NCBI GenBank assembly: GCA_023245195.1
Contig: JAHFKU010000005.1
Span: 1 to 37,672 of the forward strand
DNA length: 37,672 nucleotides
Reading direction: 5' to 3'
From: Candidatus Staskawiczbacteria bacterium
GTDB lineage: Bacteria > Patescibacteriota > Minisyncoccia > Minisyncoccales > Staskawiczbacteraceae
The notes below the pieces were generated by a model. That model was not told the DNA's origin. It saw only the letters and a program-made list of their open reading frames with translations, and did no database searches. Both the position numbers and the translations under genes were made by a program. The stretch's first letter is position 1. Every line of letters begins with the position of its first letter. Below, piece by piece: positions 10,304-14,941 of the stretch.

Positions 10304-10654
10304 ATGAGGAAACTTTACTGGACCGAGCATGCCAAGGTGAAAATGCGCCAATATGGGCTTTCAAAAAGCAAGATATTAAGTATTGTATATAAGCCAGAAA
10401 GGAAAGAAAAGGGGATTGCTCCAGGAACTACGGCTTTGATGCAAACCAGGAAAACATATTCGTTTTCAAAAACAAAAAAACCGGCTGAGATTGGGCGTAA
10501 CATTGCCCCCGGAGAAATTTGGTTGATGTATAAAGATACCAAGGATTTGCGAAAGATCATCAGTGCTTGGCGTTATCCCGGAATATCTAAGCCGGGCGAA
10601 AGCATACCGATACCGGCAGAAATTAGAGAAGAATTATTACATGATAAGTTGTGA
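10304..10654 (+). CDS. Small conserved-looking protein, possibly DUF4258/RelE-like
   Basis: N-terminal WTEHAKVKMRQYGLSKSKI resembles DUF4258-type proteins; TAAAAT 6 nt before ATG. Confidence 0.55.
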   Translation: MRKLYWTEHAKVKMRQYGLSKSKILSIVYKPERKEKGIAPGTTALMQTRKTYSFSKTKKPAEIGRNIAPGEIWLMYKDTKDLRKIISAWRYPGISKPGESIPIPAEIREELLHDKL

Positions 10655-10753: not shown

Positions 10754-11080
10754 ATGAATATCAATAAAATACTGGGTTATATATTACTGATTGCGGGAAT
10801 TTTACTTATTGTGGTGCCTTTATATCAAACGTACCAGATTTTTACTGGTAAAGTCTTGCCGGTGCAAGTTTTTTCCGTCCAAGGCGGAAAACAACCCACT
10901 GATACTAAAAGCCCAAATAACCCCTTTGATCTGCAGCAACAATTACAAAAATCACTCATGAATATTTTGCCTATCGATTTGATTAATAACACCTTGAATT
11001 TGGCAAGTTGGATGATTTTAATGTGGATTTTGATTTATGGCGGCAGTAAATTGGCCGGTATTGGCATTCAATTACTTTGA
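10754..11080 (+). CDS. Small two-TM membrane protein
   Basis: Hydrophobic N- and C-terminal segments. Confidence 0.65.
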   Translation: MNINKILGYILLIAGILLIVVPLYQTYQIFTGKVLPVQVFSVQGGKQPTDTKSPNNPFDLQQQLQKSLMNILPIDLINNTLNLASWMILMWILIYGGSKLAGIGIQLL

Positions 11081-11283: not shown

Positions 11284-11670
11284 ATGCAACAGCATAAAGA
11301 AAATATTATCGTTCAATGGATTGTGTGGCATTTTTTTGAAGTGCCCAGATTTTTGTTTTCTGTTTGGAAAAATTACATGGCATTTGGCCTAGATTTTTTT
11401 TCTGCTCCACTTTTACTTTCCACTCTTTTTTCGCCCTGGAGAAGATATGGATGGGCTTACCCTCGGGGGTTTAACATTGTGGAATACGCAAACACCTTTG
11501 TTTCAAATATGTTTTCCCGCATGATAGGGGCGCTGTGCCGGTTAGTGTTGATTGTGGCCGGAGTTTTTGTTCAAATAATTATCTTTTTAGTCGGAATTAT
11601 CGTTATTTTGCTTTGGGTGTTGATACCCTTTATTATGATCGGCATTATTTTTTTGGTAATTCAAAGCTAA
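11284..11670 (+). CDS. Conserved-looking membrane protein of Clp-like cluster
   Basis: C-terminal long hydrophobic segments; directly upstream of the Clp-like gene. Confidence 0.65.
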   Translation: MQQHKENIIVQWIVWHFFEVPRFLFSVWKNYMAFGLDFFSAPLLLSTLFSPWRRYGWAYPRGFNIVEYANTFVSNMFSRMIGALCRLVLIVAGVFVQIIIFLVGIIVILLWVLIPFIMIGIIFLVIQS

Positions 11671-11679
11671 TTATTAAAC

Positions 11680-14247
11680 ATGGAAAATAATTTTAATTTT
11701 GATATCACTGCCACTTCTGTTTTTAGATCGTACAAACTATGGTCGTTTCCTTTGTTTAGATATGCCAATATCATAAACCGGCTTTTTTTAGCGTTATTTA
11801 TTCTTTCTCTCTTTTTGTATGCGAGCTCTTTTTTGGGTTTTATCTTGCAAGCCCAAGCTTTTAAAATTTCGCTTTTGATGCTCTTTTTCTATTTGGCATT
11901 TCTTGAAATTGAGCTATTTGTAAATTCTAAAATAAAAAATCCAAGTCAAGAAGTACCACTTTCAGAGGTGCTTGCTACCCCAGAAGCATACAATGCGGCC
12001 GAATCCTTAGATTTCCAAATGTGCCAAGCCGTTCAAAAAGCAATTAAAAAAAGCAGGAAAGAAAAGTTTCCCGGGACAAGTTCAGAATTACTTTTATATT
12101 TTTGCCTGCAGCAAAAATCTGATATGCAGATATTATTGTTGAGATTAGGATTAGATCCAAGCAAGCTTTTGCAGGATCTGAAAAATTATTTGGAAAAACA
12201 AAAAAGGGGGCAGCAAAGTAAAGTTTTGTTTTCAACCTCCTTTAAGGAAGCGATTAATGAAGCTTTGAGTATTGCTAGCCAAAGAGGTAAGCGCTCCATT
12301 GGGCAAAAAGAATTACTGGTTGCCTTGGCCCGCCACGATGATTTTTTTAAAAAAGTATTAGTAGAGCATGATTTAAAAGAAAAAGATGTTGAGAATATAA
12401 CGCTGTGGCTGGATAAGATAGAAGAAAAAATAGAAAAAAACAAGCAATTTTGGACTAAAGAAAATTTATCGCGTTTTGGATCTTTTGGCCGCGATTTTGC
12501 TTCAGGTTTTACCGTTACCCTTGATGCATTTTCACATGATTTAACTCGGGCCGCCAGCAAACATATTTTTGGCGAAATTGTCGGGCATCAAAAGGAAATA
12601 GAAGAACTGGAAATTATTTTAACTAAGTCAAGCCAAAGCAACGCTTTAATCATTGGAGATCCGGGTGTGGGCAGGAAAAGCATTGTTGAGGCGCTGGCTC
12701 AAAGGTGTTTTTTAAAAACGGGTTTGCCGGGCTTGGCTAGTAAGAAAGTAATTGAGCTTGATATGGTTGCGCTGGTTTCGCGGATCCAGGATGCAGAAAA
12801 ACTGGAAACAACCCTGGACAATATATTTCAAGAAGTACTGCGAGCAGGAAATGTCATTTTGGTTATTGATCAATTAGATCAATATGCCCATCAAGGCGTC
12901 CAAAAGCCGGGCCAGGTTGATATTTCCGGTATCTTGGCAAAGTATTTAGCGCTTCCTAATTTCCAGTTTGTCGGGATTGCTTCATTTGATGGATTGCATC
13001 GAAACTTAGAGCAAAACAGCTCGTTTTTGGAATATTTCCGTAAAATCGAGGTGCTGGAAGTTTCGGAGCTGGAAACGATTAGAATTTTACAGAATCTGGC
13101 GCTTTACATGGAACAAAAATATCGCATCCTGGTTGTGTATCCCGTTATTCGGGAAATAATAAACCTGACAGCGCGATACCTTCCTAGCGTCCCTTTTCCT
13201 AAAAAAGCCATCGATGTGTTAGACGAAGCGATATCGTATGCCAAGGCGTTAAATGTTAAAGTCGTTTTGCCAAGCTATATTGCTAAGATCATTTCAGATA
13301 AAACCCAAATTCCTATCGGCAAGATGGAATTTAAAGAAAAATCAATTTTATTGGATTTAGAGCATTTAATCCACCAAAGAATTATCGGCCAAGAAGAAGC
13401 GGTGCACGAAATATCGATAGCCATGAGAAGGGCGCGTTCTGGATTGAGTTCTAAAAAGCGCCCCATGGGAACCTTCTTATTTTTGGGGCCTACGGGAGTT
13501 GGTAAAACTGAAACCGCTAAAGCTTTAGCCGAAATTTATTTTGCCGGAGAAGATAAAATGATCCGGCTAGATATGTCTGAATTCCAGTCAATTGCCGATA
13601 TTCCAAGATTAATTGGCCAAATATCTCCGGTAGAAGAGCAGGGCCTTTTGACCACTCCCGTAAGGGAAAATCCATTTTCATTGGTGCTTTTGGATGAAAT
13701 TGAAAAAGCCCACCCTAACATTTTAAACCTCTTTTTACAGGTTTTTGACGAAGGTCACATTACCGATGGCCAGGGCCGGAAAATTATGTTTACCAACACC
13801 ATTATTATCTGCACTTCCAATGCCGGAGCCGACATGATTTTTAAGGCTGTTGAAACGGGCGAGGCCTTGCAAAAAAATACCCTGTTTGATGTGTTATTTT
13901 CCAAAGGTATTTTTAAACCAGAATTCATTAATCGCTTTGATGCCGCCGTGTTTTTCCATCCGTTAACCCGCGAAAATTTACTGGATATTGCCCAGTTGAA
14001 TTTAGAGAGCCTGGCTAAAAATCTTAAAGAAAAAGAAATCGATTTTATGATTACTAATCCCCTGAAAGAAAAAATAGTTGAACTTTCGTATAAGCCTGAA
14101 TTCGGCGCCCGCGAAATGCGCCGCGTGATGCAGGATAAAATAGAAAATGTTATTGCACAAGCTTTATTATCTGATACTATTATAAAGGGAGACAGCATTG
14201 AAATAAACCCAGAAAATTTTGAAGTAGTTAAAATAAAAAGTGGATAA
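11680..14247 (+). CDS. Membrane-anchored Clp/Hsp100-like AAA+ ATPase with degenerate D1
   Basis: Two N-terminal TM segments; Clp-N-like region; D1 IIGDPGVGRKS and VILVIDQLDQ; D2 FLFLGPTGVGKTETAKALAE and LVLLDEIEKAHP; FKPEFINRFD. Confidence 0.9.
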   Translation: MENNFNFDITATSVFRSYKLWSFPLFRYANIINRLFLALFILSLFLYASSFLGFILQAQAFKISLLMLFFYLAFLEIELFVNSKIKNPSQEVPLSEVLATPEAYNAAESLDFQMCQAVQKAIKKSRKEKFPGTSSELLLYFCLQQKSDMQILLLRLGLDPSKLLQDLKNYLEKQKRGQQSKVLFSTSFKEAINEALSIASQRGKRSIGQKELLVALARHDDFFKKVLVEHDLKEKDVENITLWLDKIEEKIEKNKQFWTKENLSRFGSFGRDFASGFTVTLDAFSHDLTRAASKHIFGEIVGHQKEIEELEIILTKSSQSNALIIGDPGVGRKSIVEALAQRCFLKTGLPGLASKKVIELDMVALVSRIQDAEKLETTLDNIFQEVLRAGNVILVIDQLDQYAHQGVQKPGQVDISGILAKYLALPNFQFVGIASFDGLHRNLEQNSSFLEYFRKIEVLEVSELETIRILQNLALYMEQKYRILVVYPVIREIINLTARYLPSVPFPKKAIDVLDEAISYAKALNVKVVLPSYIAKIISDKTQIPIGKMEFKEKSILLDLEHLIHQRIIGQEEAVHEISIAMRRARSGLSSKKRPMGTFLFLGPTGVGKTETAKALAEIYFAGEDKMIRLDMSEFQSIADIPRLIGQISPVEEQGLLTTPVRENPFSLVLLDEIEKAHPNILNLFLQVFDEGHITDGQGRKIMFTNTIIICTSNAGADMIFKAVETGEALQKNTLFDVLFSKGIFKPEFINRFDAAVFFHPLTRENLLDIAQLNLESLAKNLKEKEIDFMITNPLKEKIVELSYKPEFGAREMRRVMQDKIENVIAQALLSDTIIKGDSIEINPENFEVVKIKSG

Positions 14248-14253
14248 TATATT

Positions 14254-14478
14254 ATGAATAATCAAAATAGTAGCATACCAAACAAACCAGAACCTAAAAA
14301 ATGGAAATTATTTATCAGTAAAACCTGGTCAATTATTTTAGGAATTTCGGGCCTCGTTATTATTATGTTAATTATCGGCGGCGGGGCACTTTTGGCCAGC
14401 CACGTATGGAATCCTTCTTGGAATCCTTTCGGCCAGCATCAAGACAAGGGGATTAAAGATAAGATTTTTAAGAAGTAG
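14254..14478 (+). CDS. Small single-TM protein after Clp-like ATPase
   Basis: WSIILGISGLVIIMLIIGGGALLASHVW; 6 nt after the upstream stop. Confidence 0.6.
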   Translation: MNNQNSSIPNKPEPKKWKLFISKTWSIILGISGLVIIMLIIGGGALLASHVWNPSWNPFGQHQDKGIKDKIFKK

Positions 14479-14810: not shown

Positions 14811-14941
14811 ATCCCCACGAAATTGACGAACGAATCAACACGAATCACGAATCATAACATTATTGTCTATTATAGCCATTTGGCTGATAAAACAAATATT
14901 CGTGATTCGTGTGAATTCGTTGGTTATGTGAGAATTCGTAA
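14811..14941. repeat. Palindromic word spacer, ATTCGTG family
   Basis: ACGAATCAACACGAATCACGAAT ... ATTCGTGATTCGTGTGAATTCGT. Confidence 0.88.

Follow-up and report, generated by a model that had tools for sequence, protein, structure and literature searches.

A membrane-anchored Clp-type ATPase of Patescibacteria with an intact D2 ATPase site, no aromatic D2 pore loop and a conserved small membrane partner

What does a Clp ATPase do if it is anchored in the membrane and lacks the loops through which its relatives handle their substrates? It is aromatic pore loops that grip a substrate and thread it, and an IGF-type loop that docks ClpP. The question is raised by P0001, which is encoded in a window of 37,672 nucleotides (the whole stretch of DNA that was analysed) from a Candidatus Staskawiczbacteria genome (787 kb, 95% complete; contig C13). 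We built an alignment of 89 orthologs, of which 50 come from the order of P0001 and 39 from elsewhere in the phylum, together with four reference proteins: ClpA and ClpB of E. coli, the ClpC of the host itself and one ClpC from Lachnospiraceae. Of these orthologs, 88 are complete. The motifs quoted for P0001 in the original prediction were all found, at the positions expected from the alignment to ClpA, ClpB and the two ClpC proteins (Table 1).

P0001 belongs to the Clp/Hsp100 superfamily (class I, with two AAA+ domains, a Clp-type D2 and a D2-small domain). In addition to the Pfam matches in Table 1 it matches AAA_lid_9 (2e-10), and the NCBIfam ClpA model aligns along residues 114-842. None of the NCBIfam models for ClpA, ClpB, ClpV, ClpG or ClpK reaches its curated cut-off with P0001, the best score being 476 bits against the 1232 set for ClpB. 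An AlphaFold2 model (mean pLDDT 78.5, pTM 0.56) consists of two long N-terminal helices, an N-domain of two helical repeats, D1 and D2; the closest folds are ClpC and ClpB, with low overall TM-scores that probably reflect the uncertain placement of the domains indicated by the pTM. The transmembrane helices proposed at the N-terminus are borne out by hydrophobic segments in nearly all full-length orthologs as well as by the modelled helices. Their flanks are rich in lysine and arginine, a positive-inside pattern compatible with a cytoplasmic ATPase, and judging from this charge bias the AAA+ domains probably lie in the cytoplasm. Four further features had not been part of the original prediction: a diverged N-domain, an intact Arg finger and sensor-2 in D2, the obligate nature of the neighbour at 11284, and the lack of a middle domain. 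The spacing from the D1 lid to D2 is 21-32 residues across the family, compared with 146 in ClpB, 85-147 in ClpC and 28 in ClpA, and leaves no coiled-coil middle domain.

Table 1. Coordinates within the window of the clp gene, its sequence features and two neighbouring genes
Feature	Position	Strand	Evidence or distribution
P0003, 108 aa two-TM protein, order-level accessory neighbour	10754..11080	+	profile matches in many order loci
P0002, 128 aa membrane partner, 9 bp upstream of clp	11284..11670	+	conserved pairing/fusion
P0001, membrane-anchored pore-loop-less Clp ATPase	11680..14247	+	ORF of 855 aa; AAA_2 2e-48, ClpB_D2-small 5e-19
TM helix 1, residues 29-50	11764..11829	+	hydropathy, AlphaFold2 helix
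TM helix 2, residues 57-85	11848..11934	+	hydropathy, AlphaFold2 helix
Diverged Clp N-domain, two four-helix repeats, residues 95-255	11962..12444	+	ClpA model match from 114; AlphaFold2 helix pattern
D1 Walker A, GDPGVGRKS, Lys to Arg332	12655..12681	+	Arg in 47/50 order members
D1 pore-loop position, without KYRGEFEER	12775..12807	+	alignment
D1 Walker B, VIDQ, Glu to Gln398	12862..12873	+	E/D/N/Q/S/G at this position across orthologs
D1 Arg-finger position, FLEYFRK, both Arg absent	13024..13044	+	alignment
D2 Walker A, GPTGVGKT, intact	13486..13509	+	K609, T610 in 88/88
D2 pore-loop-1 site, GYVGYEEGG lost	13615..13650	+	GYVG in 0/88 orthologs, 4/4 references
D2 Walker B, LLDEIEK, intact	13687..13707	+	D672, E673 in 88/88
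Site of the ClpP (IGF/LGF) loop of ClpA/ClpC, absent, residues 716-745	13825..13914	+	alignment
D2 Arg finger, FKPEFINRFD, R752 intact	13912..13941	+	88/88
D2 sensor-2, FGAREM, R811 intact	14101..14118	+	88/88

The alignment upholds the earlier view that D1 is degenerate. Arg332 occupies the position of the Walker A lysine and Gln398 that of the Walker B glutamate, FLEYFR stands in place of ALERRF so that both Arg fingers are gone, and IQDAEKLE takes the place of KYRGEFEER. The exchange of lysine for arginine is a trait of the order to which P0001 belongs. In the rest of the phylum the lysine is mostly kept (33 of 39 distant orthologs, as in all four references), with the Walker B glutamate and the Arg fingers lost in most, and the decay of D1 has thus taken different forms in different branches of the family. 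By its sequence P0001 does not appear to possess two functional ATP sites, since D1 is without the Walker lysine, the glutamate and the Arg fingers and D2 is complete. At the D1 pore loop, 16 of the 50 near orthologs have a phenylalanine one residue off the aromatic position, where P0001 has alanine; an aromatic residue occurs somewhere within the shortened loop region in 18/50 near and 7/39 distant orthologs.

D2 combines a strictly conserved catalytic apparatus with the loss of the aromatic pore loop and the ClpP loop. K609, T610, D672, E673, R752 and R811 are invariant in all complete orthologs, in keeping with the claim that the Walker motifs of D2 are intact. Mean column identity within the order is 0.80 for D2-large versus 0.65 for D1-large, and conservation falls from D2 through D1 and the N-domain to the transmembrane region, the order expected if D2 is the motor. 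The invariance of the catalytic set in the best conserved domain indicates that the D2 ATPase is under selection. The replacement of GYVGYEEGG, by SPVEEQGLL in P0001, had been proposed together with the caveat that catalytic or aromatic residues might reappear at shifted positions; an equivalent of GYVG sought elsewhere in the 88 sequences was found in none. The segment that bears the loop is 33-44 residues long in nearly all orthologs compared with 45 in the references, and an aromatic residue lies within the shortened region in 5 of 50 near and 8 of 39 distant orthologs. This loop-less state is kept in every one of the 88 ortholog D2s and is absent from every soluble Clp control, a distribution that goes beyond chance. 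The predicted lack of a ClpP loop likewise holds: no IGF, LGF or IGL loop precedes the D2 Arg finger in P0001, and a chance L-G-[FL] at another position of the segment occurs in 2 of 86 orthologs. ClpA and the two ClpC references have the loop, and ClpB, as expected, does not.

The most constant companion of the clp gene is P0002. A homolog precedes the clp gene or is fused to it in every family locus with enough upstream flank, at a median intergenic distance of 2 bp and with frequent overlaps. Fusions occur in three loci of the order (L042, L061 and L062), where the P0002 domain sits at the point at which the clp gene's own N-terminal transmembrane segment would begin; ten or more distant loci also have a fusion. 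Three genomes of the same genus that are 96-100% complete (G001, G007 and G009) lack both genes. Family Clp proteins without a P0002 profile match were found in G158, G058 and G229; judged by eye and by position, each has either a fused N-terminal transmembrane region or, immediately upstream, a small transmembrane gene that has diverged, even more so than the homologs detected by profile, and none gives a significant profile score. The predicted structure of P0002 (AlphaFold2, pLDDT 89) has only three helices, and it runs from a helix through a short segment with a conserved SPWRRY to a helix of 63 residues. No Pfam family scored above noise, no PDB fold matched the predicted structure and no P0002 match turned up in plasmids, and we dropped the idea that P0002 belongs to a known family. 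With a profile made from near and far members, homologs were detected in 206 of 380 sampled Patescibacteria, some of the matches being weak. The same profile matched 0/150 genomes from the phylum of the Lachnospiraceae locus, in a search that had no positive control inside that group. Pairing and fusion suggest that P0002 is a cofactor of P0001. The original prediction had named three candidate partners, and of these only the product of the gene at 11284, P0002, proved general: that of the gene at 10754 (P0003) is limited to the order, its profile finding no match in distant loci, and that of the gene at 14254 is limited to a few close relatives. P0004 was rejected as a general partner as well, since like P0003 and the 14254 product it is confined to the order or to close relatives. 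The gene at 14254 (14254-14478) lies directly 3' of clp and encodes a 74 aa protein with a single transmembrane segment.

We give about an even chance to a model in which the family comprises membrane-anchored double-AAA+ Clp ATPases with D2 as the only motor, acting on P0002 or on a client without threading and without ClpP. We envision that the transmembrane hairpin and P0002 would keep a ring of subunits beneath the cytoplasmic membrane, its AAA+ domains lying in the cytoplasm, and that the degenerate D1 would form a collar with a structural or nucleotide-sensing role. Hydrolysis of ATP by D2, assisted by a trans-acting Arg finger, could alter the shape of the ring, and this motion would be passed on to P0002 and to client membrane proteins to promote their assembly, disassembly or release, with no polypeptide gripped and drawn through the pore and no contribution from ClpP. 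The role of membrane remodeller is putative. Of the original reading as a remodeller or scaffold rather than a threading unfoldase, the non-threading, non-ClpP part is well supported by the comparison, since the shortened, aromatic-less D2 pore loop and the absent ClpP loop extend throughout the phylum; a pure scaffold, on the other hand, is unlikely given the strict conservation of every catalytic residue in D2.

Some observations count against this model and leave room for a different kind of machine. Elements other than the aromatic loop 1 could still grip substrate, a few orthologs have an aromatic residue within the shortened loop regions, P0001 keeps the N-domain found in Clp proteins that handle substrates, and no client or pathway emerged, P0002 being the only neighbour conserved beyond the order. 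P0001 could instead extract or unfold membrane proteins by threading them with non-aromatic pore residues and hand them over to soluble proteases or release them into the cytoplasm. The complete D2 catalytic set together with the retained N-domain, a mode of anchoring like that of FtsH or Msp1 and the phenylalanine beside the D1 pore-loop position in some near orthologs all speak for such an extractor. Nevertheless we regard it as unlikely, since the aromatic-hydrophobic D2 pore loop is missing from 88 of 88 orthologs, with the loop shortened in nearly all, the ClpP loop is lacking and D1 does not resemble a motor.

The relationship of the family to canonical Clp proteins bears on a second alternative. 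A P0001 ortholog accompanies a canonical ClpC in 55 of the 58 nearest genomes, and Clp proteins fetched from 25 genomes at class and phylum level fall without exception into those that bear transmembrane segments and lack the loop and those that are soluble and carry GYVG or GYIG. In an unrooted tree of 71 sequences, obtained by a quick LG+G4 search after removal of the D2 pore-loop columns, the P0001 family and the canonical proteins, among them ClpA and ClpB of E. coli and the soluble ClpC proteins that other hosts in the order carry, lie on the two sides of one branch with an SH-aLRT of 100. For the tree only, we left out an intein-like stretch of one ortholog (L113, in G361:C20), a family clp ORF of 1253 aa in which an insertion beginning with CVVGDTLI and ending with HN interrupts the D2 P-loop (GPTGVGK|C...HN|TE). 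The P-loop of functional ATPases is the kind of site that inteins favour. Two genomes reported as 100% complete and searched whole (G130 and G061) had no Clp-profile match of either the membrane or the soluble type. The host of P0001 also encodes one ClpP and one soluble ClpC (L049) that has both IGF and GYVG, and ordinary Clp proteolysis is therefore already covered. This canonical pair, together with the ClpC-like N-domain that P0001 has kept, could mean that P0001 regulates ClpC-ClpP, as a membrane-tethered adaptor or a mixed-ring subunit that recruits or restrains ClpC. We consider this improbable: the protein's own D2 catalytic residues are strictly conserved, its D2 is only ~41% identical to that of the host's ClpC, and its obligate partner is P0002, with clpC and clpP located on other contigs.

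The position of the pair suggests a third possibility, that P0001 is devoted to envelope growth or to division, where it would energise or recycle a divisome or peptidoglycan complex. Many genomes of the order place the P0002-clp pair between rplJ-rplL and mraZ-rsmH-ftsI, and in most order loci with long flanks it lies just upstream of mraZ-rsmH-ftsI on the same strand. However, this linkage is confined to the order (mraZ and rsmH occur near the pair in 0 of 20 distant loci, where P0002 is the only recurring neighbour of clp) and the pair is missing from the three nearly complete genomes of the same genus, which makes such a dedicated role doubtful. Finally, the degenerate D1 motifs and the few orthologs that are broken or split in their assemblies (for example in G011) would fit a decaying, non-functional copy of clpC, an idea that we give almost no credence in view of the reading frames that have stayed open and the D2 catalytic residues that have stayed invariant throughout the phylum, the deep clade, the conserved pair and the fusions; for the family as a whole this conservation rules out a pseudogene.

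Comparison with known systems helps to place the membrane-anchored, non-threading ATPase that we favor. With ClpC and ClpA the family shares the N-domain, the D1-D2 order, the D2 catalytic set and D2-small, and with ClpA also the lack of a middle domain, but it differs from both in its two transmembrane helices, degenerate D1, missing pore and ClpP loops, obligate membrane partner and separate clade. FtsH and Msp1 join an N-terminal transmembrane anchor to a cytoplasmic AAA+ ring, and P0001 resembles them in this arrangement; unlike them, it is a Clp-type double AAA+ protein with neither a protease domain nor an aromatic pore loop. ClpV/TssH, ClpG and ClpK, which are soluble and keep their pore loops, are likewise Clp members with specialised roles outside ClpP degradation, but P0001 scores far below their NCBIfam cut-offs. 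Torsin offers the closest functional parallel: this ATPase is related to Clp, has no aromatic pore loops and uses the membrane cofactors LAP1 and LULL1, and its structure has been taken as an argument against threading (PMC5425593, PMC4999309). P0001 shares with Torsin the missing aromatic loop, the association with the membrane and, if P0002 acts as its cofactor, a membrane cofactor. It is not a Torsin. Torsin and its cofactors belong to the eukaryotic ER and nuclear envelope, and Torsin has a single AAA+ domain in the ER lumen with an Arg finger supplied by an AAA+-like cofactor, whereas P0001 has two AAA+ domains, probably in the cytoplasm, and its own D2 Arg finger; P0002 is small and, in its model, all-helical, without an AAA+ fold. 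With the Arg finger in the ATPase itself the cofactor logic must differ, which counts against the parallel. More tentatively, we suggest that P0001 represents a Patescibacteria-wide, membrane-embedded Clp that uses ATP hydrolysis in D2 alone and a small obligate membrane partner to remodel assemblies of membrane proteins without threading, a counterpart of the Torsin principle that evolved apart from ClpA, ClpB and ClpC.

If P0001 is indeed a non-threading membrane-anchored Clp, it would widen the known range of Clp/Hsp100 ring action and allow the mechanism of Torsin-like ATPases to be studied in bacteria. Patescibacteria are a very large phylum, for the most part uncultured and with tiny genomes, and at least half of the genomes sampled carry the P0002 gene. 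With such breadth, the machine is likely to fill a widespread role in the envelope of these bacteria. In the open-access literature we found no account of such a membrane Clp, and judged against that literature the family appears to be previously undescribed. Annotation as "ATP-dependent Clp protease ATP-binding subunit" is a trap, as this name would be wrong for P0001.

The window contains some further elements near the pair. Upstream, at 10304-10654, lies the gene for a 116 aa protein with a weakly DUF4258-like start that is conserved in this position in many members of the lineage. An inverted repeat with 27 nt arms, 89% complementary and 45 nt apart, is found just upstream of mraZ (14826-14924). 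Between P0003 and P0002 (11080-11241) there is a nested inverted repeat of ~160 bp, with arms of 29, 20 and 13 nt that are 86-100% complementary, which looks like a small palindromic or MITE-like element.
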